Positions 14,251-29,078 of a stretch of DNA of 64,000 bases are shown here, in pieces (position 1 is the stretch's first letter; each line of letters begins with the position of its first letter). Position numbers and translations under genes: made by a program. The stretch is from Tsukamurella sp. TY48 (lineage in GTDB: Bacteria > Actinomycetota > Actinomycetes > Mycobacteriales > Mycobacteriaceae), in the NCBI RefSeq assembly GCF_019656655.1, contig NZ_BPMV01000001.1, forward strand, positions 806,001 through 870,000. The letters are read 5' to 3'. Below the pieces are notes generated by a model. It did not search any database. It saw only the letters and a program-made list of their open reading frames with translations, and was not told the origin of the DNA.

Positions 14251-15906
14251 ATGACGAGTGCCTCCACCACCGACGGCGCAGCCGGCGGCAGCGACGCCGC
14301 TGGCGCCGAGCCCAGCATCCACACCACCGCTGGCAAGCTGGCCGACTTCCGTAAGCGCGATGCGCAGGCCCTGGCCCCCATGGGTCAGGCCGCGATCGAC
14401 CGCGTGCACGAGAAGGGCCGGCTCACGGCCCGCGAGCGCGTCCTGGCGCTGCTCGACGAGGGCTCCTTCGTCGAGCTCGACAAGCTGGCGCAGCACCGCT
14501 CCACCAACTTCGGCATGGGCGCCAAGCGTCCGGTCGGCGACGGCGTGGTGGCCGGCTACGGCACCATCGACGGCCGCGAGGTGTGCGTCTTCAGCCAGGA
14601 TTCCACCGTCTTCGGCGGCTCGCTCGGCGAGGTCTACGGCGACAAGATCGTCAAGGTCATGGACCTGGCCACCAAGACCGGCCGCCCGCTGGTCGGCATC
14701 ATCGACGGTGCCGGTGCCCGCATCCAGGAGGGCGTGGTCTCCCTCGCGCTGTACTCGAAGATCTTCTTCCGCAACACCCAGGCCTCGGGCGTCATCCCGC
14801 AGATCTCGGTGATCATGGGCGCGGCCGCCGGCGGCCACGTGTACTCCCCCGCGCTCACCGACTTCGTGGTCATGGTCGACCACGAGAGCCAGATGTTCAT
14901 CACCGGCCCGGACGTGATCAAGTCCGTGACCGGCGAGGAGGTCACCAAGGAGGAGCTGGGCGGCGCCCAGACCCACATGAGCAAGTCGGGCACCGCGCAC
15001 TACGTGGCGTCCGGCGAGCAGGACGCGCTCGATTACGTCCGCGAGCTGATGACCTACCTGCCGTCGAACAACCGCACCGAGGCGCCGCGCTTCGTGCCCA
15101 CCGATCCGCTCACCGGGTCGATCGAGGAGTCGGTGAACGACGAAGACCGCGAACTGGATTCGCTGATCCCGGACTCGCCGAACCAGCCCTACGACATGCA
15201 CGAGGTGATCCGTCGCCTGCTCGACGACGACGAGTTCCTCGAGATCCAGCCGCAGCGCGCGATGAACATCATCAACGGCTTCGGCCGCATCGACGGCCGC
15301 AGCGTGGGCATCGTGGCCAACCAGCCCACCCAACTGGCCGGCTGCCTGGACATCGACGCCTCGGAGAAGGCCGCGCGCTTCGTGCGCTTCTGCGACGCCT
15401 TCAACATCCCCATCATCACCCTGGTCGACGTGCCCGGCTTCCTGCCCGGCACCGGCCAGGAGTACGACGGCATCATCCGCCGCGGCGCGAAGCTGCTGTA
15501 CGCCTACGGCGAGGCCACCGTCCCGAAGATCACCGTGGTCACCCGCAAGGCCTACGGCGGCGCGTACTGCGTGATGGGCAGCAAGGACATGGGCGCCGAT
15601 ATCAACCTGGCGTGGCCCACCGCCCAGTTCGCCGTGATGGGCGCCTCGGGCGCCGTCGGCTTCGTGTACCGCAAGGAGCTCGCGGAGGCGGCCGAGAAGG
15701 GTGAGGACGTCGAGGCCCTGCGTCTGAAGCTCCAGGAGGAGTACGAGGACACCCTGGTGAACCCGTACGTCGCCGCCGAGCGCGGCTACGTGGACGCGGT
15801 GATCCCGCCCTCGCAGACGCGCGGCCAGATCGTCACGGCGCTCAACATGCTCGAGCGCAAGGTGGCCATCACGCTGCCCAAGAAGCACGGGAACATCCCG
15901 CTGTGA
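14251..15906 (+). CDS. accD5: Acyl-CoA carboxylase beta subunit AccD5
   Basis: This is the carboxyltransferase subunit of biotin-dependent acyl-CoA carboxylase (551 residues). It transfers CO2 from carboxybiotin on AccA3 to propionyl- or acetyl-CoA, giving (methyl)malonyl-CoA for fatty, mycolic and methyl-branched lipid synthesis. Two crotonase-like halves are visible. The oxyanion-hole glycines are in [12 protein letters not shown] and [13 protein letters not shown] (N half) and [14 protein letters not shown] and [17 protein letters not shown] (C half). The AccD5 assignment rests on the neighbours birA, accE and maf, as in mycobacteria. The following gene overlaps the stop by 4 nt. Confidence 0.94.
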
Positions 15907-16181
15907 GCGCCGCCGAGAAGCCGGTGGAGGCCACCAAGGTTCCCGAGGCCGAGGCGGAGAAGCTGCGCGCCGCGATCCGGTTCGAGAAGGGCAACCCCTC
16001 GGCCGCCGATGTCGCCGCGATCGTCACGGTGCTCGCCGCCGCGTCGAGCTCTGCGCCGCAGGCCGGCGCTCCGCTGAACTCCCTGTGGGGCAACAACAAG
16101 GAACGGATGCGCCCGCAGTACTTCAACGGGCCCAACGCCTTCACCAGCCAGACCCCCGTCTTTTGGACCAAGGGCTCGTAA
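15903..16181 (+). CDS. accE5: Acyl-CoA carboxylase epsilon subunit AccE5
   Basis: This 92-residue small subunit stabilises the AccA3-AccD5 complex in actinobacteria. The conserved part is the central [19 protein letters not shown] segment. It is followed by a Ser/Ala-rich region and an aromatic tail ([26 protein letters not shown]) of the type seen in AccE proteins. The start is GTG, overlapping the accD5 stop (GTGA), which implies translational coupling. Its last codons overlap the presumed start of maf. Confidence 0.9.
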
Positions 16182-16840
16182 CCGGCCCGGTCGGGCTGGT
16201 CCTCGCGTCGGCGTCGCCGGCGCGGCTCGGTGTGCTCCGCGCCGCCGGGGTCGAGCCCACGGTGATCGTCTCGCAGGTCGACGAGGACGCGATCCTCGCC
16301 GACCTCGGAAGCACTGTGCCGCACGAGGATGCGGTCACCGCGCTGGCCCGCGCCAAGGCGCACGACGTGGCCGCCCGTCTCGTCGGCGAGCCCTCGCAGC
16401 GCGGGCGCACCTCGGTGGTGATCGGCTGCGACTCGATGCTCTCCATCGACGGCGCCCTGGTCGGTAAGCCGCACACGCCCGCGGTCGCGCGGGAGCGCTG
16501 GCACGCGATGCGGGGCCGCTCCGGGCGGTTGCTCACCGGGCACTGCGCGCTGCTCCTGGTCGACGGTGCGCTCGCCCACGAGGCCGTCGGGACGGGCGAT
16601 ACGGTGCTGCGCTTCGGCGCACCGTCGGACGCCGAGATCGACGCCTACGTCGCGACCGGCGAGCCCCTGGAGGTGGCGGGCGCCTTCACTCTGGACGGCC
16701 TCGGCGGCTGGTTCATCGACGGGATCGACGGCGACCCGAGTTCGGTGATCGGCATTTCATTGCCATTGATGCGAAGCCTGCTCTGCGATCTCGGCGGCGA
16801 TGTGGTCTCGCTGTGGGCGGGATCGCCGCGCACAACCTGA
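16163..16840 (+). CDS. maf: Maf-like nucleotide pyrophosphatase
   Basis: This is a Maf/Ham1-fold nucleoside triphosphate pyrophosphatase, about 225 residues, that probably removes non-canonical or modified nucleotides. Recognisable pieces are [18 protein letters not shown] at the N-terminus, [32 protein letters not shown] and the late [36 protein letters not shown]. No ATG or GTG precedes the conserved start. TTG 16163, inside accE5, is the best candidate, so the 5' end is uncertain. The gene is last in the accD5, accE5, maf run, as in M. tuberculosis. Confidence 0.85.
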
Positions 16841-16888
16841 GCTGCGGGTGTCCGACGTCACATTCTCGGCGTGTTCTGCGCGTAAGCA

Positions 16889-17012
16889 TTGCGTTAACTC
16901 CACGGAAGCGGAACGTTTCCCCAGCTCGGAACCCATGGCAACTCGCGAGTAACAAAACACCGTTCAGTCAGCGAAGTTTCACCGAACCCAGCACGCGCGC
17001 CGGTTAACGCAA
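16889..17012. promoter_or_regulatory. Paired inverted TTGCGTTAAC repeats
   Basis: TTGCGTTAAC at 16889-16898 and its exact complement GTTAACGCAA at 17003-17012 flank 104 bp of unusually AT-rich DNA, just upstream of the acyltransferase cluster. Each copy contains the palindrome GTTAAC. The pair could hold a dimeric regulator that loops over the promoter. The 291-bp gap between maf and the cluster holds no gene. A weak CCTTCG/CGAAGG hairpin is at 17053-17069. Confidence 0.45.
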
Positions 17013-17131
17013 CCCCGGTCAAGGGTGCAACACAGTGACGATCGACACCACTCCTTCGGCTCGCGAAGGGAATGGACAGGCCTTTAGCGTTCATGGCGAA
17101 CCAGGTAACCGCCCACAGGTAGGAACCGCGC

Positions 17132-18403
17132 ATGAACGCAACGCTTCGCCCGCTCGCACTCTCCGAGCGCGGTTTCGTGGGCCCGTACCCGACCACGGTC
17201 GCCTTCGAGCTCACGCTGCGCGGCGATCTGGATCTGGCCGCCCTCAGCGATGCGCTCACCGCGCTGCGCGGCACTCACCCCGCCCTCGACGCCGCCGTGG
17301 TCGCCGACGGCGCGGACTTCGCCTTCGTCGTGCCCGCGGAGGCGACCGGTGCGGCGCTCACGGTGGACCGGGTGGACACCCTCCCGGAGATCGCGGTGCC
17401 GCCGCTGGTCGACCCGGGGGTGGCCCTGGGCCGGCTGCACGTGGTGACCGCGGGCGACCGGCACCGGGTCTCGCTCGCGATCAACCACGCGCTGGGCGAC
17501 GGCACCTACCTGTTCACCCTGTTCTCGCAACTGTTCGCGCACTACACCGCCCTGGTCCGCACCGGCGGCCTCGATGCGGCCCGCCCGCAGGAGTTCCCGT
17601 CCTCGGCGCAGGAGATCCTGCGTGAGGTCGCCACCGTCGCCGATACCGGACGCGAGCGGCTCGACGGCATCCGCTGGTACGGCGCGGCTCCCACGCTGGA
17701 CGCCGACGGTGCGCCGGCCGCGCCGCGCCTGCCCGAGGTGGCCTCGCTCCGCTTCTCCGAGGACGTGACCGCCGGTTTCGCGGCCGCGGCCAGCGGCGTG
17801 GGCATGAACGCACTGCTCTCCGGTGTGCTGCTGTGTGCCGAGCGGGTCGGATTCCTCGACGCCGATCCGGCGGAGTCGATCCGGATCGGCGCGATGACCC
17901 TGGCCGATATGCGACGCCGGATCCAGCCGGCGCTAGCGGCCACCGCGGTCACCAACTTCGTCGGGGCGTCCTTCGCCGCGCCCGAGCTGACCGCCCTCGC
18001 CGATCCGATCGCCGTGGGCGCCGCGATCGCCGACACCGTGCGCGCCGATGTCGCCGCGGGACGCAGCCTGGCCGTGCTCGCCGCACCCGCTCCCCCCGGC
18101 CCCGCGGAGCCGCCCGTGGTGCTCAGCAACCTCGGCGCCCTCGCCCTGGACCTTCCCGACACCGTGGAGGCCGAGCACCTGCGCCCGCTCATGTCGATGG
18201 ATTCCGCCGGACTGCACGGCCCCGCCGGGCAACGGCGACCATCGCCCTCGGCCACGATCTTCCAGGCCTCCACCTTCCAGGGCCGCCTGGGCATCGAGGC
18301 GATCACGCTGGGCGGCACCGCCTCCCCCGCCGCGCGGTCCGCGGTCGCCGACCGGATCGCCGCCCTCGTCCACGCCGCCGCCCGCCTCGCCCCCGCGGCC
18401 TGA
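17132..18403 (+). CDS. PapA5-like acyltransferase 1
   Basis: This 423-residue condensation-fold acyltransferase resembles PapA5. The N-terminal half aligns by eye with PapA5 (ELTLRGDLDLAALSDALTAL, then a HPALDA segment). The catalytic motif is NHALGDG with His119 and Asp123; the first His of the canonical HHxxxDG is Asn. The C half keeps the AVTNFVGASFAAPEL and FQGRLGIEAITLGG strands of the PapA_C region. PapA5 transfers acyl chains from a carrier or CoA to hydroxyls of a lipid. The substrate here is unknown. It is the first gene of a six-gene coupled cluster, preceded by an AT-rich gap with inverted repeats. Confidence 0.85.
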   Translation: MNATLRPLALSERGFVGPYPTTVAFELTLRGDLDLAALSDALTALRGTHPALDAAVVADGADFAFVVPAEATGAALTVDRVDTLPEIAVPPLVDPGVALGRLHVVTAGDRHRVSLAINHALGDGTYLFTLFSQLFAHYTALVRTGGLDAARPQEFPSSAQEILREVATVADTGRERLDGIRWYGAAPTLDADGAPAAPRLPEVASLRFSEDVTAGFAAAASGVGMNALLSGVLLCAERVGFLDADPAESIRIGAMTLADMRRRIQPALAATAVTNFVGASFAAPELTALADPIAVGAAIADTVRADVAAGRSLAVLAAPAPPGPAEPPVVLSNLGALALDLPDTVEAEHLRPLMSMDSAGLHGPAGQRRPSPSATIFQASTFQGRLGIEAITLGGTASPAARSAVADRIAALVHAAARLAPAA

Positions 18404-18425
18404 CCGGATCGAACCAGGAGACGTC

Positions 18426-19715
18426 ATGCAGACCTACCGCGCACTCACCTTCTCGGAGGCCTCCTTCGTGCGGCCCACCTCCCGCGAGGTGATCGGCACC
18501 TCGTTCGAGCTGCGGGGCGCCGTGGACACCACCGCGCTGCGCGCCGCGTACGGCGCGCTTCTGGAGGAGTACCCCGTGCTGTCGGCGCGGATCGTGACCC
18601 TCGGCGGCAAGCCGCATTTCGCGCCGGGCGATGCGGCCGTGGCCGCCGCCATCGGGTTCCAGGACGTCTCCGCCCCGTGGTCCGGCTACGACCAGACGCC
18701 GCCGTGGTTCGTCGGCAGTGAGCAGCTGTCGGCGCTCACCCTGACCGGCCTCGGCGAGCGGTACCGGCTCACCCTGTGGGCCAGCCACGCCGCCACCGAC
18801 GGTTCCGGCATCGTCGCGATCTCGGTGCGGCTGTTCGAGCTGTACACGGCGTTCGCCAGCGGGGCGACGCCGATCGTGCGGCCCGCCCGCGATTTCCCGG
18901 CCGAGCCGCATCTGGTGATGGCGGCGCGCGGTCACATGCCCGGCGAGCTCGACTACGAGGAGCGTCTCGCGGGCACCCGCTGGCACGGCGCGGTCCCGGC
19001 CCCGGCGGACGAGGCTCCCGACGCTCCGGACGCCGACGATGCGCACCGCGTGCGGTTCGACGCCGCCGCCACCGCCGCCCTCGCCGCCGCCGCGCGGGCC
19101 CACGGCTTCTCCATCCACGCCCTGGTGAGCGGTCTCATCGCCCGTGCGGAACTGGCCGAATCCGAGGACGATTCGGCCCTGGCCCTGCTCACGCCGGTCG
19201 ATTTCCGCGGCCGCATCGAGCCGCCCATCCCGCTGCGCTCGGTGACCGCCCTGTGCGGGTTCTCCTACGTGGCCGTGCGCGACGATGCGGTGGAGGCGAT
19301 CGCCCGCATCGTGGCGGACACCATCCGCTCGGACGTCCGTGACGGCACCGTGCTGCGCACCGCCGTGAGCCCGATGCCCGACCTGGCCACCCGCCGCCAC
19401 GGCCCGCCGGTGCTGATCAGCAACCTCGGCGAATTCCCCGCCCTCCCCGTGCCCGCCGCCCTGGAGGTGCTCGACTTCCACTCGCAGATCGTGCGCAGCG
19501 CGGCAGGCATCCGCGAGCACGCCGCCACCTGGCAGGGCGACGGTGCCGCGCCGGTCCCGATCGGCTCGTCGTACCTGATCTCCACCTTCGGCGACCGGCT
19601 CTCGATCGAGATGCGGGTGCTGCCCGGCACTCTCGGCGACGAGGCCCGGACCCGGATCCTGCGCCGCATCGAGGCCGGCGCGCACGCGCTACTGGAACTC
19701 GGGACGGCCGCATGA
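18426..19715 (+). CDS. PapA5-like acyltransferase 2
   Basis: This 429-residue paralogue of the preceding gene has the same layout: SFELRGAVDTTALRAAYGALLEEYPVLSARI at the N-terminus and SHAATDGSG as the active-site motif (His121, Asp125; Ser in the first His position). It continues with ALLTPVDFRGRIEPPIP in the bridging region and STFGDRLSIEMRVLPGTL near the end. An AGGAG site precedes the ATG by 5 nt. It lies 22 bp after acyltransferase 1, and its stop overlaps the next start (ATGA). Divergence from its neighbours suggests a distinct acyl donor or hydroxyl target. Confidence 0.85.
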   Translation: MQTYRALTFSEASFVRPTSREVIGTSFELRGAVDTTALRAAYGALLEEYPVLSARIVTLGGKPHFAPGDAAVAAAIGFQDVSAPWSGYDQTPPWFVGSEQLSALTLTGLGERYRLTLWASHAATDGSGIVAISVRLFELYTAFASGATPIVRPARDFPAEPHLVMAARGHMPGELDYEERLAGTRWHGAVPAPADEAPDAPDADDAHRVRFDAAATAALAAAARAHGFSIHALVSGLIARAELAESEDDSALALLTPVDFRGRIEPPIPLRSVTALCGFSYVAVRDDAVEAIARIVADTIRSDVRDGTVLRTAVSPMPDLATRRHGPPVLISNLGEFPALPVPAALEVLDFHSQIVRSAAGIREHAATWQGDGAAPVPIGSSYLISTFGDRLSIEMRVLPGTLGDEARTRILRRIEAGAHALLELGTAA

Positions 19716-20407
19716 GCGTGCCCCTCGCCGACACCGAATCGCCGCCGGCCCCGCCGGTGGCGCTGCTGGTGGATGTCGCCATCCAGCTCGGTGTGTACTT
19801 CACGCTCCGCTACCTGGTGGGCGCGGGCCAGCTGGTGGCCCTCGTCACCGGCACCGCGCTGGTCGCCACCCGGATCCTGGTGCGCACCTTCCGCCGTCGC
19901 GCCACCGATCCGCTGGAGATCTTCACCCTCTCGCTGCTCACCTGCTCGATCATCGCCGCCGCCGTCTCCGGCAGCCCGCGGGTGATCCTGCTGGTGGAGA
20001 CCAGCATCGGCGGGCTGATGTTCGTGGCGATCGTCGCCGGGCTGGTGCTGCGCCGCCGCGCGGTGGCCACCCTGATCATGCGGCTCACCGTCCGCGGCGA
20101 CGCCGAGCGCGCCCAGGCCTGGAACCGCCGGGTGCGGGTGTCCCCCACCACTGTCCGGGCCGTCTCCGCCATCGATCCGCTGTGGCTGGTGGCCGTGGCC
20201 GTCAGCACCGGCGCCTCGGTCACCGCGGCGCTGGCCCTGCCGATCGACTACGCGGTGGTCGCCTGTCAGCTGATCCCCCTGCTGGTGGCCGTGCCGATCG
20301 CGCCGATCACCCTGTTGCTGCTCCGCCCCGTCCGGGCTGCGCTGGCAACCCCCGACCGTCCCCTGACCCCGTCACCGAAGAACGTCGAAAGGACGAACCG
20401 ATCATGA
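19712..20407 (+). CDS. VC0807-like membrane protein
   Basis: This 231-residue integral membrane protein has about six hydrophobic segments, among them LLVDVAIQLGVYFTLRYLV, LEIFTLSLLTCSIIAAAV, VAIVAGLVLR and the last IPLLVAVPIAPITLLLLRP. Positions such as RILVRTFRRRATDPLEIF recall the VC0807 family of unknown function. It is overlapped by 4 nt on both sides, by acyltransferase 2 and by the glycosyltransferase, so it is an integral member of the cluster. A role in anchoring the enzymes or exporting the product is only inference. Confidence 0.62.
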   Translation: MSVPLADTESPPAPPVALLVDVAIQLGVYFTLRYLVGAGQLVALVTGTALVATRILVRTFRRRATDPLEIFTLSLLTCSIIAAAVSGSPRVILLVETSIGGLMFVAIVAGLVLRRRAVATLIMRLTVRGDAERAQAWNRRVRVSPTTVRAVSAIDPLWLVAVAVSTGASVTAALALPIDYAVVACQLIPLLVAVPIAPITLLLLRPVRAALATPDRPLTPSPKNVERTNRS

Positions 20408-21792
20408 AGGTGTGCATCCTCGCCATGGGCAGCCGAGGCGATGTCCAGCCGACGATCGCGATCGGGCTTGCCCTGAAGAATCGCGGACACGATGTGACGA
20501 TCGCCGCCATGGGCGATCCGCTGGTGAAGCTGATCCGCTCCGCGGGCCTGGAAGGGCACCGGCTCAACGAGATCGTGCCCGACTACGACGACGACTACCG
20601 CGAGGTGATCCACCGGCCGGTGGAGCGGATGCGTGCCTACGGCCGCTTCCTGGTGCGCAACATCGCCACCATCTCGCACGAGATCGAGACCGTGTGCCGA
20701 GACGCCGATGTGGTGCTCACCCACTCGGACGCCGTGGATTTCGCGCTGCCCGTCACCCGCCGCACCGGCGCCTCGATCATCAGCTACCGGTTCTTCCCGG
20801 GCACCACCAACAGCGTGTACCCGATGACCCAGTACACGCCCGCCGGTCTCACCAGCGATGTGCTCTCGCGGTCGCCGCGGATGGTCAAGCGCGCCACCTG
20901 GGCCCTGGGCGATTCCTTCACCTGGACGCACGTGCGGCACGCGGTGAACTTCCACCGCATGTCGATCGGCGAGGCGCCGTACCGGTCGCGTCGCGCGAAG
21001 AACCGGGACGCGAACGAGATCGTGGACCTGCAGCTCTACGATCCCGCCCTCACGCCCGATCTGGTGCCCGAGTTCAGCCGCACCCGGCCGATGCTCGGCT
21101 TCCTGGAGGTCCCGTCGGACGCGTGGTTGCGCGAGGGCAAGCAGACCCGCACCGACGCCGACCTGATGCGCTGGATCAAGGAGGGCGACGCACCGATCTA
21201 CTGGGGCTTCGGCAGCATGCGCATCGCCGACCCCGATGAGAAGGCCCGCATCTTCGCGCAGGTGTGCAAGGAACGCGGCCGCCGCGGACTCATCGTGGCC
21301 GGGTGGAGCGATCTCCAGGGCGCCGATCTCGGCGATCACATCCGCGTGGTCGACGAGGTCGTTCACTCGGAGGTGTTGCCGCACTGCGCCGCCGCCGTGC
21401 ATCACGGCGGCGCCGGCACCACCGCGGCATCGCTGCGCGCGGGACTGCCCACGCTGATCTGCCCGGTGCTCGCCGATCAGCCCTTCTGGGGCGCGCGGGT
21501 CACCGATCTGGGCGTGGGCGCGTGCCTGCCGATGCGCAGCATGACCCCGGAGCGCCTGCACGCGGCCTTCGACAAGCTGCTCGATCCCGCGACCCGGCGG
21601 CGCGCGCAGCGCACCTCGTCGCTGATCGACCTGGGCGACATCCCCGCCCGCCGGGCCGCGCTGATCATCGAGTCCATCGCCGAGGACGACGGGGTCGATG
21701 TGACGGGCCGGCTGGTGGACACCATCTCCGCCCCCGCCACCGTCGATTTCGCCGCCCCGGCGGCGCTGCCGCTGGAAGCCATGGAGGTGTGA
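20404..21792 (+). CDS. GT1-family (UGT/MurG-fold) glycosyltransferase
   Basis: This glycosyltransferase (462 residues) has the sterol-glucosyltransferase/Rv1524-like architecture. The acceptor domain opens with MKVCILAMGSRGDVQPTIAI. The donor domain carries the sugar-nucleotide motif HHGGAGTTAASLRAGLPTL at about residues 333-351 and ends in the DQPFWG signature. Relatives glucosylate or rhamnosylate lipid acceptors from nucleotide sugars in the cytoplasm, including mycobacterial glycopeptidolipid enzymes. It sits in the middle of four acyltransferases with ATGA coupling upstream and a 1-nt gap downstream. That suggests sugar addition to the same acylated product. Donor and acceptor are not predictable. 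Confidence 0.88.
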   Translation: MKVCILAMGSRGDVQPTIAIGLALKNRGHDVTIAAMGDPLVKLIRSAGLEGHRLNEIVPDYDDDYREVIHRPVERMRAYGRFLVRNIATISHEIETVCRDADVVLTHSDAVDFALPVTRRTGASIISYRFFPGTTNSVYPMTQYTPAGLTSDVLSRSPRMVKRATWALGDSFTWTHVRHAVNFHRMSIGEAPYRSRRAKNRDANEIVDLQLYDPALTPDLVPEFSRTRPMLGFLEVPSDAWLREGKQTRTDADLMRWIKEGDAPIYWGFGSMRIADPDEKARIFAQVCKERGRRGLIVAGWSDLQGADLGDHIRVVDEVVHSEVLPHCAAAVHHGGAGTTAASLRAGLPTLICPVLADQPFWGARVTDLGVGACLPMRSMTPERLHAAFDKLLDPATRRRAQRTSSLIDLGDIPARRAALIIESIAEDDGVDVTGRLVDTISAPATVDFAAPAALPLEAMEV

Positions 21793-21793
21793 G

Positions 21794-23053
21794 ATGTCCC
21801 GTCGTGCACTGACTCCGCTGGAGGTGCCGTACGTCGTCACCAACACCACCTCCAGCGGCAGCTTCATCGCCCGCGGGCCGATCGACGCCGATCGGCTGGC
21901 CGCGGCGTACGCGGCCCTGCGCCGCGAGTACCCCGAGCTGACCGGCCGGATCGAGGCCACGGCCTTCGGTTTCGACCTCGTGACACCCGATGTACCGCTC
22001 GACGAGGCGAGCGCCCCGGTGATCGTCGAACAGCGCCCGTTCGCCGCGGGTGATGTGGCGCTCGGCGTGCAGCCCGACGAGGCGCTCGCCGCCGTGCAAC
22101 TGGTCTCCGACGGCGACCTGCACCGGGTGACCCTCGGGGTGAACCACGCCGTGGCCGACGGTGCGCACGCGCTGTTCCTGAATCTGCGCCTGTGGCAGCT
22201 GTACACCGATCCCGCCGCGTACGCGGGCCCGGTGACTGATCTTCCGGCCGGCCCCCTCGATCTCGCGGACCGGTTGGGCACCTCGGGCGCACCCGGGCAG
22301 TTCACCGCTGTGGCCGTCGAGTCGGCCGGCGTCGTGCCCACCCCCGCGGCGGTGGACGACGGGATATTCGGGTTCGAGCGGATCCGGATCGACGAGGCCG
22401 CCACCGCCGCGGTGCGGCAGCGCGCCAAGGCGGCCGGGGTCAGCGTGCACGGCCTGCTCGCCGGACTCATCGTGACCGCCGAACGCGCCGAACTCGACCG
22501 TCCCACCGACGAGGCCGTGAGCATGGCCGTCTTCAGCCCGGTGGACCTGCGCGGGCGCTGCGATCCGCCCGTCGAGGCCGCCGCGGTCACCAACTTCGCC
22601 GGCTCCTCGACCGCACCGGTCGCGGTGCGCGGAGATGCCGCCCCGGAGGAGATCGGCCGGATCGTGCTGGACCGGCTCAAGTCCGATCTCGCCGACGGCA
22701 CCGTGGTCGCCGCCCTCACCGGCGCGGCCGGCGTGCAGGTGACGGGCGGGGCGCCCGTGCGGCTGAGCAACATCGGCGCGATCCCCGCGCCCGCCGCACC
22801 CGAGGAGGTCACGGTGCTCGACTTCCACACCAGCTCCGAGGTCGATATCGACCGGGTGCGTGCGCTCGTACACAGCGCACCGCCCGAGGCGCTCGCCCCG
22901 CTCGTCGGATTGCACTACCACGCCCTCACCTTCGGTGGCCGCCTCTCGATCGAGCTGCGCTACGCCCCGGGCACCCTGAGCCCGGAGGCGGTGCAGCGCA
23001 TCCGCACCCGCATCGAGGCCGCACTCACCGCACCCGTCGGAGCCGCCGCATGA
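21794..23053 (+). CDS. PapA5-like acyltransferase 3
   Basis: This 419-residue member of the same family has GSFIARGPIDADRLAAAYAALRREYPELTGRIE at the start. The catalytic motif is NHAVADG (His118, Asp122), followed by FSPVDLRGRCDPPVEAAAVTNFAGSS and a C-terminal LTFGGRLSIELRYAPGTL. It is closest in layout to acyltransferase 2, and the two share the PVDxRGR and RLSIE blocks, which points to duplication within the cluster. It begins 1 nt after the glycosyltransferase stop and overlaps acyltransferase 4 by 4 nt. Confidence 0.85.
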   Translation: MSRRALTPLEVPYVVTNTTSSGSFIARGPIDADRLAAAYAALRREYPELTGRIEATAFGFDLVTPDVPLDEASAPVIVEQRPFAAGDVALGVQPDEALAAVQLVSDGDLHRVTLGVNHAVADGAHALFLNLRLWQLYTDPAAYAGPVTDLPAGPLDLADRLGTSGAPGQFTAVAVESAGVVPTPAAVDDGIFGFERIRIDEAATAAVRQRAKAAGVSVHGLLAGLIVTAERAELDRPTDEAVSMAVFSPVDLRGRCDPPVEAAAVTNFAGSSTAPVAVRGDAAPEEIGRIVLDRLKSDLADGTVVAALTGAAGVQVTGGAPVRLSNIGAIPAPAAPEEVTVLDFHTSSEVDIDRVRALVHSAPPEALAPLVGLHYHALTFGGRLSIELRYAPGTLSPEAVQRIRTRIEAALTAPVGAAA

Positions 23054-24345
23054 CCGACGATTCCGCCGATCTGCTCGCCTTCGTCGATCAGGGCGCTGCA
23101 GCGGGAACCCGCGCCACCGGCCGCAATTCCCTGATCCAGATCGTCTGGGTGTACGACCACGGCGTGAACCTCGAAGGCCTGGAGGAGTTCCGCCGGTCCC
23201 TCACCCGCGGCCTGCTGGGCCGCCGGGTGACGGCATCGCCCCTGCCCTTCGGGCGGGACCGCTGGGTTGCCAGCACCGCGGCGGCGCAGATCTCCGTGGC
23301 CGCGCAGCCCCGTCCGCGGGAGGAGATCGACGCCTGGGTGGACCGGCGCGCCGCGGTACCCATCGACCCGTGGTCCGGCCCCGGCTGGCACCTCGGAGTC
23401 CTCCCGCTGACCGACGGCGGATCCGCTGTGACGCTGGTGGTCTCGCACGTCCTCGCCGACGGTGTCGGCGCCGCCACCGCCGCCGCCGAGGCCGCACTGG
23501 GCGCCGCCCGCGAGCTCCCCTACCCGCGGGAGGCTCCGCCGCTGTGGCGGTCCATCCCCCGCGATGCCGCCCTGACCGCCCGGCAGATCCCGGCCGCGAT
23601 CCGGGCCGCCGCGGCCGCGTCCCGGCTGGCGAAGGGACGGCTGGCGCCCACGGGCACCGCGAAACCGCACCCCGTCGGGCCCGATCGGTGGACGGTCGCC
23701 CACCTGGACCGCGCCCTGCTCACCGAGCGGGCCGAGGCGCTGGGCGGCACCGAGACCACCCTGCTGTTCGGGGTCACCGCGGCGATCGCCTCGACGCTCG
23801 GCTGGGTACAACCCGCCGACGGCGCCGCCGTCCTCGGCCTGTCCGTGAACCGGCGCACCGACGGGGACCTGCGGGGCAACGCGATCGTCGACGCCGAGCT
23901 CACCGTGGACCCCGCCGCGGGCCCCGAGGGCATCGCCGCGCTGCGCGGCACCGTGAAGCGGTTGCTGGCCGGGCTCGGGGACGGAGGCCGGTTCGACGTC
24001 TTCGGCCCGCTGATCACGCTGCTGCCGCGCCGCACGCTCGCCGCACTGATCGACGCGCCACCGGACCCCGCGCGCCCGGTGACCACGTGCGCCGGGGTGG
24101 GGGCGCTGCCCGCCCCCGTGCGCTCGCCGGACGGCACGCCCGCGGACCGCGCCTGGTTCCGCCTGGCCTGGTCCGATCTGCCGGGGCGGGAGACGGGACC
24201 GCGTCCGCCGTACTTGTACGTGGGCTGGACCGGAACCGACGACGAGATGTCCGTGTTCGCCGCGACCAACCTGGCGACGGCGGAGGATCTGCCCGGGGTC
24301 GTCGACGATGCGGTGGCGAAATTGGTGCACCGCTCCCCCGTCTGA
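23050..24345 (+). CDS. Divergent condensation-fold acyltransferase 4
   Basis: This 431-residue protein has SHVLADGVGA as its active-site motif (His133, Asp137), but the rest differs from the other three. It lacks the PVDxRGR block and instead has LSVNRRTDGDLRGNAIVDAEL, reminiscent of the bridging region in wax-ester-synthase-like or NRPS condensation folds. It is probably an acyltransferase with its own substrate. The start overlaps the previous stop (ATGA). It is the last gene of the cluster, with 37 bp to sseA and no evident terminator. Confidence 0.72.
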   Translation: MTDDSADLLAFVDQGAAAGTRATGRNSLIQIVWVYDHGVNLEGLEEFRRSLTRGLLGRRVTASPLPFGRDRWVASTAAAQISVAAQPRPREEIDAWVDRRAAVPIDPWSGPGWHLGVLPLTDGGSAVTLVVSHVLADGVGAATAAAEAALGAARELPYPREAPPLWRSIPRDAALTARQIPAAIRAAAAASRLAKGRLAPTGTAKPHPVGPDRWTVAHLDRALLTERAEALGGTETTLLFGVTAAIASTLGWVQPADGAAVLGLSVNRRTDGDLRGNAIVDAELTVDPAAGPEGIAALRGTVKRLLAGLGDGGRFDVFGPLITLLPRRTLAALIDAPPDPARPVTTCAGVGALPAPVRSPDGTPADRAWFRLAWSDLPGRETGPRPPYLYVGWTGTDDEMSVFAATNLATAEDLPGVVDDAVAKLVHRSPV

Positions 24346-24382
24346 GCCGACACCGGTCCCGCGCGACCGCTAGGCTTGCCGC

Positions 24383-25276
24383 GTGGCCATCGAGACCGAT
24401 CCCAGCCCCGAGCTGCAGGACTACGCGCACCCCGAACGCCTCGTCACCGCCGATTGGCTGAGCGGGCACCTCGGTGTGCCGGGCCTGAAGGTGATCGAGT
24501 CCGATGAGGACGTGCTGCTCTACGACATCGGGCACATCCCGACCGCGCAGAAGGTGGACTGGCACCTGCACCTCAACGACGCCGTCACGCGCGACTACAT
24601 CGACGGCGCGGCGTTCGCGGAACTGATGCGCGCCAAGGGCATCAGCCGCGACGACACCGTGGTGATCTACGGCGACAAGTCGAACTGGTGGGCCGCCTAC
24701 GCGCTGTGGGTGTTCACCCTGTTCGGCCATCCGGACGTGCGCTTGCTCGACGGTGGCCGTGATCTGTGGATCAGCGACGGCCGCGATGTCTCGCTGGACC
24801 GCCCGGACTATCCGCGCAGCGACTACCCCGTGGTCGAGCGCGACGACGCCGCGATCCGCGCCTTCGCCGACGAGGTGCGCGCCGATCTCGGTACCCGCGC
24901 CCTGGTCGATGTGCGCTCGCCGCAGGAGTACACCGGCGAGCGCACCCACATGCCCGATTACCCGGAGGAGGGCGCCCTGCGCGGCGGGCACATCCCGACC
25001 GCGGTGTCGATCCCGTGGGCCAAGGCCGCGCGGTCGGACGGCCGGTTCCTGCCGCACGCCGAACTGACCGAGGTCTACGCGGATCTCGATCCGCAGGCGC
25101 CCGTCACGGCCTACTGCCGGATCGGCGAGCGGTCGAGCCACACCTGGTTCGTCCTCACGCATCTGCTGGGCTTCGCGGATGTGAAGAACTACGACGGCTC
25201 CTGGACGGAGTGGGGCAACACCGTGCGTGCGCCGATCGCGCGCGGCGAAGAGCCGGGCCCCGTCCCGAGCGCGTGA
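24383..25276 (+). CDS. sseA: Thiosulfate sulfurtransferase SseA
   Basis: This two-domain rhodanese (297 residues) transfers sulfane sulfur from thiosulfate to acceptors. The N-terminal domain ([18 protein letters not shown]) is inactive by pattern. The C-terminal domain carries the catalytic Cys245 in [15 protein letters not shown] and the substrate segment [11 protein letters not shown]. The start is GTG 24383. The sufE-like gene overlaps its stop by 4 nt (GTGA), as expected for a sulfur-relay pair. In M. tuberculosis sseA directly follows maf; here the acyltransferase/glycosyltransferase cluster lies between. Confidence 0.94.
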
Positions 25277-25689
25277 GCAGCCTGCCCGCGCCGCTCGCGG
25301 AGATCGTCGACGACTTCGCCGGTCTGGGCGAGCAGGACCGGCTAGAACTGCTGCTCGAGTTCTCCCGCGAGCTGCCCGACCTGCCGGAGCACCTGACCGC
25401 GGCGGCCATGGAGCCGGTGCCCGAGTGCCAATCGCCGCTGTTCCTGGACGTCGACGCGTCCGATCCGGGCGCGGTGCGGCTGTACTTCAGCGCGCCGCCG
25501 GAGGCGCCCACCACCCGCGGTTTCGCGTCGATCCTGGCGCAGGGTCTGGACGGCCAGTCGGCGGCGGCCATCGCCGCCGTCCCCGACGATTTCCACCACG
25601 CGCTGGGGTTGGACTCCGTGGTCAGTCCGCTACGGCTGCGCGGTATGTCTGCCATGCTGTCCCGGATCAAGCGTCGCCTCGCGGCGTAG
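25273..25689 (+). CDS. SufE-like sulfur acceptor protein
   Basis: This 138-residue SufE-fold protein is predicted to accept or relay sulfur for Fe-S assembly or tRNA thiolation. The start [18 protein letters not shown], the exposed Cys52 in [10 protein letters not shown] and the end [19 protein letters not shown] match the family. The start is GTG 25273, overlapping the sseA stop. An orthologue follows sseA in M. tuberculosis (Rv3284). Only 9 bp separate it from the PapA2-like gene, which is an insertion relative to mycobacteria. Confidence 0.88.
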
Positions 25690-25698
25690 CGAGCCGCC

Positions 25699-27141
25699 AT
25701 GCAGTTCACCGAGCTGGCCACGTATCCGCTTCGCCCCGGCGAATTGCGCAACTGGATCCCCACCACCGGCCCGGCCTCCCGGTGGCGCGACGACCCGCGC
25801 GCCACCTCGCACGTGCACGAGGCGCACCTGCGCGGCGCGCTGTCGATCCTGCAGCGCCGGCACATCGACGGCGGTCGCGAGTCCTGGCTGGGCCTGGGGA
25901 TAGAGTTCGACGAGCCGCTGTCCATCCCCGGCCTGCGCACCGCGCTGCGGGCCTGGATCGACCGGCACGAGGTGCTGCGCACCCACGTCTTCCTGGAGGA
26001 CGGCGTTCCGCGGCGGCGCAGCGCGCTGCCGGACACCGTGGATCTCAAGGTCCAGACGGTGGGCACCTACAGCAGCACCGAGCCCCTGGCCGAGCAGTTG
26101 CTGGGTGAGTTCGATAGGGCCACGGCGCCGCTCACCTGGCCCGCGTACATGTTCTCGACGGTGGCGCGGGAGGACTCGTTCACGCTGTTCTTCGCCGCCG
26201 ATCATTCGCTGCTGGACGGCTACTCGCTGATCCTGAGCCCGTACGAGCTGCGCGAGCTGTACCGCGAGGCGGTGCACGGCGACGAGCCGCGGCTGATCCC
26301 CGCCGGCAGCTACGTGAACTACTCCGATACCGACCGGCAGTCCGCCGACCGTGCCACCGCCGATCATCCGGCGGCGGTGATGTGGGAGGAGTACCTCACC
26401 GAGACCTCCTTCCAGCCCGAGCCGTTCCCCATGCCGCTGCTGCCGCCGAGCGCCAAGGTGCTGGCGGACGAGACGCTCGCCGCGCTCAGCCTCGACCCCG
26501 ACGGGGTGCCGCGGATGCCGCAGAACGCCCTGAACTTCCATCTGCTCGACGACGAGCGGGCCAACAACTTCACCCGCGTGTGTTCCGAGGCGGGCGCCAC
26601 GCTGGTGACCGGCGTGCTCGCGTGCATGGCGAAGATCAACACCGATCTGGGCTTCGGCCCGGTGTTCCGGTGCGCGGTCACCCGGCACACCCGCGACGCG
26701 GAGCAGTGGATCGCGGCGCTCGGCTGGTTCGTGGGCATCGCCCCCTTCCGGCTGGACACCACGGGGACCCGTACTTTCGGCGAGCTGGCGCAGCGCTCGC
26801 AGGAGCAGTGGCGGCACTCGAAGGTCGGCAGCACCCTGCCCTACCTGCGGATTGGCGAGGTGCTGGGCTCCGCGCCCCCGCCGAGGTTCGTGGTCTCGTT
26901 CATGGACACCCGCTCGGCGCCCGGTTCGGCGGTCAACGACGCGGGTGGCGCGGGTGCGCTCCGCTCGCGCGATTACTCGCTGGAGGACGTCTATCTGTGG
27001 ATGCTGCGCACGCCCACCGGACTGCACGTGGCGGCGCGGTTCCCGGGCTTCGACACCGCGCGCCGCAGCATGACGCTGTACCTCGGCGCGCTACGGTCGA
27101 TGTTGACCGAGATCGGCGACGCAACGGTTACTCGCGGGTAA
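25699..27141 (+). CDS. PapA2-like acyltransferase 5
   Basis: This 480-residue condensation-domain acyltransferase resembles the mycobacterial PapA1/PapA2/PapA3 type more than PapA5. Shared features are a W/P-rich N-terminus (RPGELRNWIP), DHSLLDGYS as the catalytic motif (His169, Asp173), LGWFVGIAPFRL and RFVVSFMDTRSAPGS. PapA2 and PapA1 acylate trehalose sulfate in sulfolipid synthesis. That makes a trehalose-like sugar acceptor plausible here, but it is inference. It sits between sufE-like and accA3, about 1.3 kb from the six-gene acyltransferase cluster. A short hairpin (27126-27143) spans its stop. Confidence 0.82.
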   Translation: MQFTELATYPLRPGELRNWIPTTGPASRWRDDPRATSHVHEAHLRGALSILQRRHIDGGRESWLGLGIEFDEPLSIPGLRTALRAWIDRHEVLRTHVFLEDGVPRRRSALPDTVDLKVQTVGTYSSTEPLAEQLLGEFDRATAPLTWPAYMFSTVAREDSFTLFFAADHSLLDGYSLILSPYELRELYREAVHGDEPRLIPAGSYVNYSDTDRQSADRATADHPAAVMWEEYLTETSFQPEPFPMPLLPPSAKVLADETLAALSLDPDGVPRMPQNALNFHLLDDERANNFTRVCSEAGATLVTGVLACMAKINTDLGFGPVFRCAVTRHTRDAEQWIAALGWFVGIAPFRLDTTGTRTFGELAQRSQEQWRHSKVGSTLPYLRIGEVLGSAPPPRFVVSFMDTRSAPGSAVNDAGGAGALRSRDYSLEDVYLWMLRTPTGLHVAARFPGFDTARRSMTLYLGALRSMLTEIGDATVTRG

Positions 27142-27191
27142 CCCATTCGCGGGGGACTGTCGCGTGCGCCACAGCGGGTGAGGCATAGACT

Positions 27192-27255
27192 CCGTCTGGA
27201 GCCTGGCCCGACAACGGGTGTACACAGACGGCTGCGCGCGCACCCTCGCGCAGCC
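27192..27255 (+). promoter_or_regulatory. Structured accA3 leader (two stem-loops)
   Basis: CCGTCTG (27192-27198) pairs with CAGACGG (27225-27231), and GGCTGCGCG (27230-27238) pairs with CGCGCAGCC (27247-27255). The two stems share 2 bases, so they partly compete. They lie between a possible TAGACT -10 (27186-27191) and the accA3 ribosome-binding site GAGGAG. Function is unknown. Confidence 0.4.
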
Positions 27256-27272
27256 TGGAACGAGGAGATTGA

Positions 27273-29078
27273 GTGGCAGCGCACGCCGATAAGAAGATCG
27301 AGAAGGTGCTCATCGCCAACCGCGGCGAGATCGCGGTTCGCGTGATCCGGGCCGCGCGAGATGCCGGCCTGACCAGCGTCGCCGTCTACGCCGAGCCCGA
27401 CGCCGACGCCAAGTTCGTGCGCCTGGCCGACGAGGCCTTCGCGCTGGGCGGCCAGACCTCCGCCGAGTCGTACCTGGTCTTCGACAAGATCCTGGACGCC
27501 GCCGCGAAGTCCGGTGCCGATGCGATCCACCCCGGCTACGGCTTCCTGTCGGAGAACGCCGACTTCGCGCAGGCCGTGATCGACGCGGGCCTCACCTGGA
27601 TCGGCCCGTCGCCGTCGTCGATCCGTGACCTGGGCGACAAGGTGACCGCGCGGCACATCGCCGAGCGCGCCAACGCGCCGATGGCCCCCGGTACCAAGGA
27701 CCCGGTCAAGGACGCCGACGAGGTCGTCGCCTTCGCCAAGGAGTACGGCGTGCCCGTCGCCATCAAGGCGGCGTTCGGCGGCGGTGGCCGCGGCATGAAG
27801 GTCGCGTACACCATCGAGGAGATCCCCGAGCTGTTCGAGTCGGCCACCCGTGAGGCCGTGGCGGCCTTCGGTCGCGGCGAGTGCTTCGTGGAGCGCTACC
27901 TGGACAAGGCCCGCCACGTCGAGGCGCAGGTCATCGCCGATCAGCACGGCAACGTGGTGGTCGCGGGCACCCGCGACTGCTCGCTGCAGCGCCGCTTCCA
28001 GAAGCTGGTCGAGGAGGCGCCCGCACCCTTCCTCACCGACGAGCAGCGCGCCCGCATCCACCAGTCCGCCAAGGACATCTGCCGCGAGGCGGGCTACTAC
28101 GGTGCCGGCACCGTGGAGTTCCTCGTGGCCGCCGATGGCCTGGTCAGCTTCCTCGAGGTGAACACGCGCCTGCAGGTGGAGCACCCGGTCACCGAGGAGA
28201 CCGCGGGTATCGACCTGGTGCGCCAGCAGTTCCGCATCGCCGAGGGCAAGGAGCTGACTATCACGGAGGATCCCACTCCGCGCGGTCACAGCTTCGAGTT
28301 CCGGATCAACGGCGAGGACGCCGGTCGCGGCTTCCTGCCCGCCCCCGGCCCCATCACCGTGTACCGCGAGCCCACCGGCCCCGGCGTGCGCGTCGACTCC
28401 GGCGTGGATCAGGGCGATGTGATCGGCGGCCAGTTCGACTCGATGCTGGCCAAGCTCATCGTGACCGGCGCGACCCGCCAGGAGGCGCTGGAGCGCTCGC
28501 GGCGCGCGCTGGCCGAGTTCGAGGTCGATGGCCTCGCGACGGTCATCCCGTTCCACCGCCACATCGTCTCCAACCCCGCCTTCATCGGAGACGGCGAGAA
28601 GTTCGACATCTACACCAAGTGGATCGAGACCGATTGGGAGAACCCGATCGAGCCCTACGCCGGTGGCCAGGCCATCGAGGAGGACGACTCGCTCCCCCGC
28701 CAGAACGTGGTCGTGGTGGTCGACGGCCGCCGCGTCGAGGTCTCGCTCCCGGGCGAGCTGTCGCTGGGCGGCGGCGGCAACGCCGGTGGCGCCGGTGTGA
28801 TCCGCCGCAAGCCGAAGCCGCGCACCCGTGACCGGAGCGCCGGCGTGGCCGCGACCGGTGACTCGGTGACCGCTCCGATGCAGGGCACGGTCGTCAAGGT
28901 GGCCGTCGAGGAGGGCCAGGAGGTCAAGGCCGGCGAGCTGGTCGTGGTCCTGGAGGCCATGAAGATGGAGAACCCGGTGGCCGCGCACAAGGACGGTGTC
29001 GTGACCGGCCTGTCGGTCGAGCCGGGCACCGCCGTCACGCAGGGCACCGTGCTCCTCGAGCTGAAGTCCGCGGAGTAG
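27273..29078 (+). CDS. accA3: Acyl-CoA carboxylase alpha subunit AccA3
   Basis: This is the biotin carboxylase plus biotin carrier subunit (601 residues) shared by several actinobacterial acyl-CoA carboxylases. The biotin carboxylase domain starts [20 protein letters not shown], has the ATP-grasp loop FGGGGRGMK and the [19 protein letters not shown] region. [15 protein letters not shown] is the catalytic segment. The C-terminal carrier has the biotinylation site EAMKMEN, with Lys564. The start is GTG with GAGGAG 5 nt upstream. It works with AccD5 and AccE5 from 14.2-16.2 kb and is biotinylated by BirA. Confidence 0.96.

Follow-up and report, generated by a model that had tools for sequence, protein, structure and literature searches.

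A coupled acyltransferase and glycosyltransferase block at the accD5-accA3 locus of Tsukamurella: a candidate assembly line for acylated trehalose-based lipids

Introduction

Mycobacterial lipooligosaccharides and glycopeptidolipids are built by glycosyltransferases together with Pap enzymes, and they are exported by MmpL proteins. In the mycobacterial acyltrehalose pathways, CoA-dependent acyltransferases of the condensation fold esterify trehalose. PapA3, Chp2, MmpL10 and Pks3/4 act in the diacyltrehalose and polyacyltrehalose pathway, and PapA2 and PapA1 act in the sulfolipid pathway. PapA5 esterifies a polyketide diol, not a sugar. Here we describe a locus in Tsukamurella sp. TY48 in which Pap-type enzymes are encoded beside a glycosyltransferase. 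It lies in a stretch of 64,000 nucleotides (NZ_BPMV01000001.1, positions 806,001 to 870,000; the window), where six genes on the + strand, A to F (17132-24345), stand between maf and sseA. They encode four acyltransferases, a GT1-type glycosyltransferase and a VC0807-family membrane protein. A seventh gene, G, stands between sufE and accA3. We suggest that the block and G probably form an assembly line, free of any polyketide synthase (PKS), whose product would be a cell-surface oligosaccharide lipid, acylated and built on trehalose.

Trehalose diesters have been reported from T. pulmonis, T. spumae, T. pseudospumae and T. tyrosinosolvens (PMC4365757), those of T. pseudospumae also in a second source (PMC9321207). 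Tri- and tetrasaccharide lipids are reported from T. tyrosinosolvens DSM 44370, with two acyl groups on each of two sugars in the trisaccharide lipids, and the same review traces published acylated trehalose oligosaccharide lipids of this genus back to 1998 (PMC4365757). Rhodococcus sp. I2R makes succinoylated di- and trisaccharide lipids. Its authors suggest three papA3 genes and one papA1 gene on contig 9 (1461, 1431, 1404 and 1488 bp) as putative trehalose acyltransferases and give the strain more than 98% average nucleotide identity to KRD197 (PMC8396431). TlsA of Rhodococcus SD-74 is counted here with the same kind of system, after PMC8396431. The I2R authors called the genetic basis of succinoyl trehalolipids poorly understood in 2021, and the available parts of their account name the papA genes and discuss neither an adjacent glycosyltransferase nor the chromosomal site (PMC8396431). 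For mycobacterial PapA3, esterification of trehalose at position 2 and then at position 3 is described (PMC4183827). In clusters of serpentinite actinobacteria, a papA3 gene near a glycosyltransferase gene has been read as a sign of trehalose ester synthesis (PMC13206832). The literature on Tsukamurella, on trehalose lipids and their genes and on mycobacterial relatives held no account of the A-F block in the available parts of the open-licence matches listed, and no paper on Tsukamurella papA together with a glycosyltransferase was found among open-licence papers. Assembly of acylated sugar lipids by Pap-type enzymes is already known, and A-F is a new gene arrangement of it.

Results

A first-pass annotation, made from the letters of the window, had placed A-F in one coupled run, and recomputation reproduced its coordinates and spacing. 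There are gaps of 22 nt between A and B and 1 nt between D and E, and 4-nt overlaps between B and C, C and D, and E and F; the run ends 37 nt before sseA (Table 1). The order and a similar spacing are kept in 10 other Tsukamurella genomes with a complete block, and across the complete blocks of the genus the A-B gap is 17-55 nt and the C-D spacing -4 or +1 nt. The median ratio of nonsynonymous to synonymous substitution rates (dN/dS), taken over 55 pairs from the 11 complete loci (G007, which meets a contig end, G008, G012, G013, G014 and Gordonia effusa were left out), is 0.39 for A, 0.24 for B, 0.24 for C, 0.11 for D, 0.21 for E, 0.20 for F and 0.13 for G. The comparison genes accD5, sseA and accA3 give 0.09-0.10, and maf gives 0.235. 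Since order and spacing are conserved in the 10 other genomes and dN/dS is 0.11-0.39, the grouping of A-F goes beyond chance. Judged by these low medians, all seven genes are maintained, with A the loosest and fastest evolving and D the most conserved of the six.

The catalytic His-x3-Asp that the first-pass annotation had ascribed to all four acyltransferases is present, followed by Gly in each case (Table 1). HX3DX14Y is the signature of Pap acyltransferases. It occurs in 12 of 12 orthologues of A, in 12 of 12 intact copies of B, in 12 of 12 of E and in 16 of 16 of G, and in none of the 12 of F. It also occurs in 64 of the 65 proteins of the G tree described below, while shuffled window proteins give 0.5-2.2%. 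The PapA_C domain (PF16911, cut-off 30 bits) is found in A, B and E and is lacking in F and G. Therefore, A, B and E are predicted to be Pap-type enzymes, more closely PapA5-type, and F a more distant cousin. The closest solved match of E is PapA5 (1q9j, E 2e-11), and the NCBIfam PapA5 model NF006787 gives A, B and E 148.6, 175.9 and 200.8 bits, below its cut-off of 396 bits. The enzymes thus share the domain and the signature with PapA5 of phthiocerol dimycocerosate and phenolic glycolipid assembly. They differ in scoring under that cut-off, in having no PKS partner at the locus and in a presumed sugar acceptor.

This likeness raises the alternative that A, B and E release or tailor a polyketide or peptide made elsewhere, as in a glycopeptidolipid or phenolic glycolipid, with D glycosylating the product. 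The diol acceptor of PapA5 would fit, the genome has condensation domains in very long frames resembling nonribosomal peptide synthetases (NRPSs), and a PapA5-like gene lies near PKS-like frames on contig 2. (The labels PKS-like, fabG/inhA-like and mmpS-like were given by eye here and below.) Against this, those PKS-like frames have their own adjacent PapA5-like gene. As the first-pass annotation had stated, there is no PKS: neither the scanned locus genes of the window nor the 29 features annotated in the identically ordered T. tyrosinosolvens stretch include a PKS partner, and these features hold no NRPS or FadD either; outside the locus, the scan covered part of the open reading frames of the window. 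No such gene was seen among the scanned flanking frames in G. effusa. We therefore regard this alternative as improbable.

F is predicted to be an acyltransferase of the condensation fold that is neither Pap-type nor within the family cut-offs of the wax ester synthase/diacylglycerol acyltransferase (WS/DGAT) enzymes. It does not reach the cut-off of 23.6 bits of WS_DGAT_cat (PF03007), and with TIGR02946 it scores 14.8 against a cut-off of 309.95. Its predicted model is weak (predicted local distance difference test score, pLDDT, 56; predicted template modelling score 0.55). It matched 193 PDB chains at E <= 0.001 in Foldseek, and the 50 matches listed are mostly NRPS condensation-type domains, together with the WS/DGAT wax ester synthase 6chj. 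Residues H133, D137 and G138 are invariant in 12 of 12 copies. The earlier claim of four condensation-fold acyltransferases stands for A, B and E as Pap-type enzymes and for F by the fold of its model; F does not belong to the Pap type.

D contains two domains above cut-off, EryCIII-like_C (PF06722, 71 bits against 31.7) and UDPGT (PF00201, 34 bits against 19.5), and its closest solved relatives are GtfA, GtfB and sterol 3-beta-glucosyltransferase. The best NCBIfam match of D is the rifamycin-inactivating glycosyltransferase Rgt (NF000354), and the weak match of F is to WS/DGAT. D might then be a detoxifying enzyme of the rifamycin or macrolide type, the acyltransferases might serve storage lipid or wax ester synthesis, and the genes would be mere neighbours. 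We consider this very improbable. D reaches 120.9 bits where the Rgt model requires 800, and F stays below the TIGR02946 cut-off. The genes overlap and keep a fixed order in 11 genomes, A-E stand together in G. effusa, and a distant neighbourhood of the same kinds of genes in another genus (G022, below) argues for one pathway.

C belongs to the VC0807 family (NF041646, cut-off 65 bits, reached). Its model is mostly helical (pLDDT 77.4) and had no match among solved structures at E <= 0.001 in Foldseek, so the fold was dropped as a clue to function. C sits between B and D in 12 of 12 complete B-C-D runs, 11 from Tsukamurella and one from Gordonia. VC0807-like genes were found at E <= 1e-8 in 42 of 397 genomes sampled from the order, 35 of these outside the family. 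Because the genes are this widespread, C alone is not diagnostic of the module and its family was rejected as a marker. A second VC0807-like gene stands beside a GT2-like frame, labelled by eye, in Tsukamurella G010 (L181) and G003 (L182), and in G010 beside a GT1 gene as well. This suggests that VC0807 proteins recur in sugar-lipid loci.

The first-pass annotation missed G, which lies outside its coordinates. G carries a condensation domain (PF00668, 67 bits against 30.6), and over its whole length (residues 16-477) its best solved relative is PapA2 (6aef, E 4e-25), a trehalose-2-sulfate acyltransferase. By this resemblance G, and not any of A-F, would be the enzyme most like a trehalose acyltransferase. 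It stands between sufE and accA3 in all 16 Tsukamurella genomes examined. In a tree of 65 G-type proteins, the copies adjoining accA3 need 2 label changes, against 19.5 in shuffles. The variable copies form three supported clades common to Rhodococcus, other genera, Gordonia and Tsukamurella G013 and G014, with several long branches.

The block is less constant than G. A-F is complete at the locus in 11 of the 16 Tsukamurella genomes; G007 meets a contig end and retains a piece of E ahead of F and G; the block is absent from G008 and G012; and G013 and G014 have another gene set. Thus, the block as a universal feature of the genus was rejected. In G008 and G012, maf and sseA lie ~315 and ~100 nt apart and G is present, which bears out the earlier view of an insertion in a conserved locus. 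The genus, a guess at first, is confirmed by the named relatives of D, which are Tsukamurella (7 loci, 86-90% for D). T. pseudospumae carries the block (L035), and T. tyrosinosolvens NCTC13231 has the complete locus accD5-accE-maf-A-B-C-D-E-F-sseA-sufE-G-accA3, annotated there as hypothetical (A, F), acyltransferase (B, E), VC0807 (C), glycosyltransferase (D) and condensation domain-containing (G). The comparison locus by locus, with T. pseudospumae, G. effusa and Rhodococcus, covers loci L029-L060. A wide occurrence in the order is unsupported: D was found at E <= 1e-80 in 3 of the 397 order genomes, all Tsukamurella, and neither the G022 nor the Gordonia copy came up in this sample.

Among 59 Gordonia genomes, D was found at E <= 1e-90 in only one. 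In G. effusa, A-E stand in order (66, 72, 76, 83 and 69% identity), at a different site flanked by genes for a Clp-type ATPase and a PRC-barrel protein, and the best match to F reaches 32%, with no orthologue. The restriction to one Gordonia genome and the different chromosomal site suggest lateral transfer of A-E between Tsukamurella and G. effusa. Identity alone would not prove it: D shares 83-85% with G. effusa, against at most 79% for sseA between Tsukamurella and the other genera sampled, and accA3 reaches 86% between Tsukamurella and other genera, while A, B, C and E of G. effusa share only 66-76%.

The separation of A-E from G and from the accD5/sseA locus in G. effusa, and of G from the block in G008 and G012, speaks for another type of product. 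The substrate of D may be a lipid alcohol of another kind, whether a hydroxylated fatty acid, a carotenoid or a triterpenoid resembling hopanoids or sterols; A, B, E and F may then acylate the attached sugar, and G would be an independent trehalose acyltransferase that shares the locus. The sterol 3-beta-glucosyltransferase and GtfA/GtfB among the closest solved relatives of D are in line with this. However, GT1 similarity does not fix the acceptor, the 29 kb of T. tyrosinosolvens sequence surrounding the block carry no annotated gene for making such an alcohol, and the Rhodococcus version of the locus, described below, is tied by the I2R authors to trehalose oligosaccharide lipids (PMC8396431). 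We regard a glycolipid built on something other than trehalose as unlikely, and retain trehalose as the probable acceptor.

Of 24 loci (L037-L060), 14, from Rhodococcus and Rhodococcoides, read maf, an F-like gene (-), a GT1 gene (+), an F-like gene (-), three G-like genes (+), sseA, sufE, G and the beginning of accA3; L047 is a fifteenth and stops after two G-like genes. The loci were retrieved via their glycosyltransferase and give no measure of the frequency of the set in Rhodococcus. The comparison of G-type genes used 26 loci, and matches below 600 nt and proteins below 350 aa were dropped. The Rhodococcus homologue of G at the same place shares 36-39% identity with G, and the glycosyltransferases share 31-36% with D. 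The Rhodococcus locus has no counterparts of A, B and E and no match to C. The A-F block has no orthologues of the Rhodococcus variable genes G1, G2 and G3, and members of their clades occur in G013 and G014. The Tsukamurella locus fits the Rhodococcus-type pattern, a glycosyltransferase and several condensation-fold acyltransferase genes between accD5 and accA3.

The papA genes of I2R appear to be the Rhodococcus version of this locus. We infer this because its close relative KRD197 (L052) agrees with them in three respects. Its G-type genes of 1461, 1431 and 1488 bp equal three of the four I2R lengths exactly, the first two papA genes are separated by 1478 nt in each strain, and in KRD197 sseA and sufE occupy the interval ahead of the fourth G-type gene.

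Among 21 genomes of other genera sampled from the family (G016-G036), four (G020, G025, G031, G033) have a glycosyltransferase with G-like genes at the locus, in G020 between accD5 and maf, and four others (G021, G023, G024, G036) have G only. Neither was seen in the remaining 13, among which G016 and G018 have only a weak sseA relative without accA3 nearby, G022 was taken around its glycosyltransferase, and the G034 contig lacks the stretch before sseA. In G031, a cassette (L133, 11192-16904) holds a DrrA-like ABC transporter gene, a PF00756 esterase, and glycosyltransferase and PapA genes. The PF00756 family includes mycolyltransferases. In G023, neither the block nor G gives a tblastn match in the 3.3-kb maf-sseA interval (L125).

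Tsukamurella G013 and G014 carry a set of ~9.1 kb at the site (L119, 4400-13507; L120, 4600-13455). After maf, each has a B-like frame of 310 aa in which the catalytic His-x3-Asp is missing from its position and several segments of the protein are gone; the HX3DX14Y match in the L120 remnant is an unrelated N-terminal spot only. The remnant is followed by three G-like genes of the Rhodococcus clades and a major facilitator superfamily transporter. L119 also has a frame without a Pfam match and a 444-aa HTAADG protein that matches neither Pfam nor F. No match to D was seen in the set. By its gene content, the site seems once to have carried an A-F block that gave way to a Rhodococcus-like set.

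Beyond Tsukamurella and G. effusa, the nearest relative of D that turned up (52%) is in G022, a member of another genus. Its neighbours are fabG-inhA-like genes on one side and an MMPL gene (PF03176), accompanied by a short mmpS-like frame, on the other (L124). About 2 kb on are four tandem PapA5-like genes, one checked with Pfam and all four by tblastn, and directly after them a C-like gene (29%; L157). Since these genes neighbour each other, PapA5-type genes, a VC0807 protein and a D-kind glycosyltransferase co-occur outside Tsukamurella too, near a gene of the lipid-exporter type. The GC content at third codon positions (GC3) of the PapA5/VC0807 run is 0.59-0.66, that of the glycosyltransferase gene 0.68 and that of most surrounding frames 0.74-0.91; the lower value of the run suggests its import. 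In the A-F block itself there is no exporter gene, as the first-pass annotation had noted, and no dedicated MmpL. With the G022 MMPL protein as query, the TY48 genome returned only two stretches of one 1045-aa frame (E <= 1e-30), ~0.47 Mb away, and a dedicated MmpL elsewhere in the genome is thus unsupported.

Discussion

We propose the following scheme for the block and G as an acyltrehalose-based assembly line. G would acylate trehalose in the cytosol like PapA3, first at position 2 and then at position 3, to give mono- or diacyltrehalose and with the latter the trehalose diesters of the genus. In species with the block, D would then add a further sugar from a presumed donor. A, B, E and F would load further acyl groups taken from acyl-CoA, each enzyme perhaps serving a particular hydroxyl or type of chain. 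C may tether the enzymes to the membrane or assist in moving the lipid through it. The tri- (and tetra-) saccharide tetraester described for T. tyrosinosolvens would be the likely product. The earlier reading of a multiply acylated glycolipid is upheld by inference from the T. tyrosinosolvens block and the Rhodococcus papA locus, although it had left out G.

Several points weigh against this scheme. T. pseudospumae has the block, yet only trehalose diesters are reported from it in the available parts of the sources (PMC4365757, PMC9321207). The sequenced T. tyrosinosolvens is NCTC13231, while the lipid producer is DSM 44370, and one glycosyltransferase alone does not explain a tetrasaccharide. 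A, B and E resemble PapA5, whose acceptor is a polyketide diol. The block has no exporter gene, and the single MmpL-like frame elsewhere was found with the G022 query. Because D is only 31-36% identical to the Rhodococcus glycosyltransferases and A, B and E have no counterpart there, the shared site would be a parallel and not one inherited pathway. The third papA gene of KRD197 does not match the I2R length: the G-like gene (L052, 16116-17533) does not read through from its expected start, where I2R has 1404 bp. Finally, the gene-product link in I2R is its authors' proposal only (PMC8396431).

Compared with the mycobacterial acyltrehalose pathways, the locus shares condensation-fold acyltransferases, a G of the PapA1-3 type and, in its distant version in G022, an MMPL gene nearby. 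The block differs in lacking PKS, FadD and mmpL genes and in having three extra PapA5-type enzymes, a glycosyltransferase and a VC0807 protein. Like the lipooligosaccharide and glycopeptidolipid systems, it would make acylated sugar-bearing lipids with glycosyltransferases and Pap enzymes (cf. PMC12507525); unlike them, it has one glycosyltransferase and no NRPS/PKS, methyltransferase or MmpL. The Rhodococcus locus for succinoylated di- and trisaccharide lipids shares the site (accD5-maf-...-sseA-sufE-G-accA3), the GT1 gene, several condensation-fold acyltransferases and the G homologue. Its extra acyltransferases are three G-type and two F-like enzymes (- strand), not A, B and E. The serpentinite cluster is an NRPS cluster and is likened to the block by description only (PMC13206832).

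A broader idea, which we put forward tentatively and hold to be somewhat less than even in likelihood, is that, in mycolic-acid bacteria, whole cassettes for glycolipid assembly are exchanged at the accD5-maf-sseA-accA3 locus, around a G that stays in place. Two such cassettes, A-F of the PapA5 type and the Rhodococcus set of the PapA1-3 type, would swap there, and each would convert a shared acyltrehalose core into its own acylated oligosaccharide lipid. The Tsukamurella tri- and tetrasaccharide lipids would then have their genetic basis in A-F, and C would belong to a dedicated complex for assembly or flipping.

Should the assembly-line scheme hold, one site would supply candidates for the genes in Tsukamurella as well as Rhodococcus, the missing glycosyltransferase among them. 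Tsukamurella species that have the block, lack it or carry the alternative set would provide a natural comparison. In addition, the locus would serve as a model, free of PKS, for the building of sugar lipids by Pap-type enzymes outside Mycobacterium, and might help in tailoring biosurfactants.

Additional features of the locus and genome

Table 1. Features of the accD5-accA3 locus in the window.
Feature	Position	Strand	Basis
accD5, acyl-CoA carboxylase beta subunit, left anchor	14251..15906	+	annotated as acyl-CoA carboxylase subunit beta in T. tyrosinosolvens
maf (approximate start codon)	16163..16840	+	Maf family protein in T. tyrosinosolvens
region upstream of A, perhaps own promoter of the block	16841..17131	+	conserved words GGTCAA, GTGACGA
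A, predicted PapA5-type acyltransferase, 423 aa, HALGDG	17132..18403	+	PF16911 149 bits
B, predicted PapA5-type acyltransferase, 429 aa, HAATDG	18426..19715	+	PF16911 192 bits
C, VC0807-family membrane protein, 231 aa	19712..20407	+	NF041646 96.6 bits
D, GT1-type glycosyltransferase, 462 aa	20404..21792	+	PF06722, PF00201 above cut-off
E, predicted PapA5-type acyltransferase, 419 aa, HAVADG	21794..23053	+	PF16911 201 bits
F, predicted divergent condensation/WS-DGAT-fold acyltransferase, 431 aa, HVLADG	23050..24345	+	PF03007 20.4 bits, under cut-off 23.6
sseA, sulfurtransferase, right neighbour of the block	24383..25276	+	open reading frame list, relatives, T. tyrosinosolvens annotation
sufE	25273..25689	+	PF02657 101.7 bits
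G, predicted PapA1-3-type acyltransferase, 480 aa, HSLLDG	25699..27141	+	PF00668 67 bits; PapA2 6aef E 4e-25
accA3, acyl-CoA carboxylase alpha subunit, right anchor	27273..29078	+	T. tyrosinosolvens annotation

All 12 of the upstream regions aligned, that of the G. effusa copy among them, retain the words GGTCAA and GTGACGA ahead of A, by a count made by eye. Therefore, the block probably carries its own promoter. An RNA element was dropped as a candidate, with no Rfam match at the gathering threshold in 16500-27500. A recent horizontal import into the Tsukamurella genome, judged by composition, is unsupported because the GC (0.70-0.76) and GC3 (0.90-0.93) of A-F resemble those of the neighbouring genes.

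A plasmid-borne block was also rejected. The sole match in the plasmid collection is "plasmid 9" of T. tyrosinosolvens NCTC13231 (NZ_LR134451.1, L156; 415,783 bp), which has chromosomal housekeeping genes aboard. Since it holds accD, maf, purE and the like, this record is probably a piece of the chromosome, and its plasmid label an assembly error. Elsewhere in the TY48 genome (C2:772000-791900, L183), a further PapA5-like gene adjoins large PKS-like frames.

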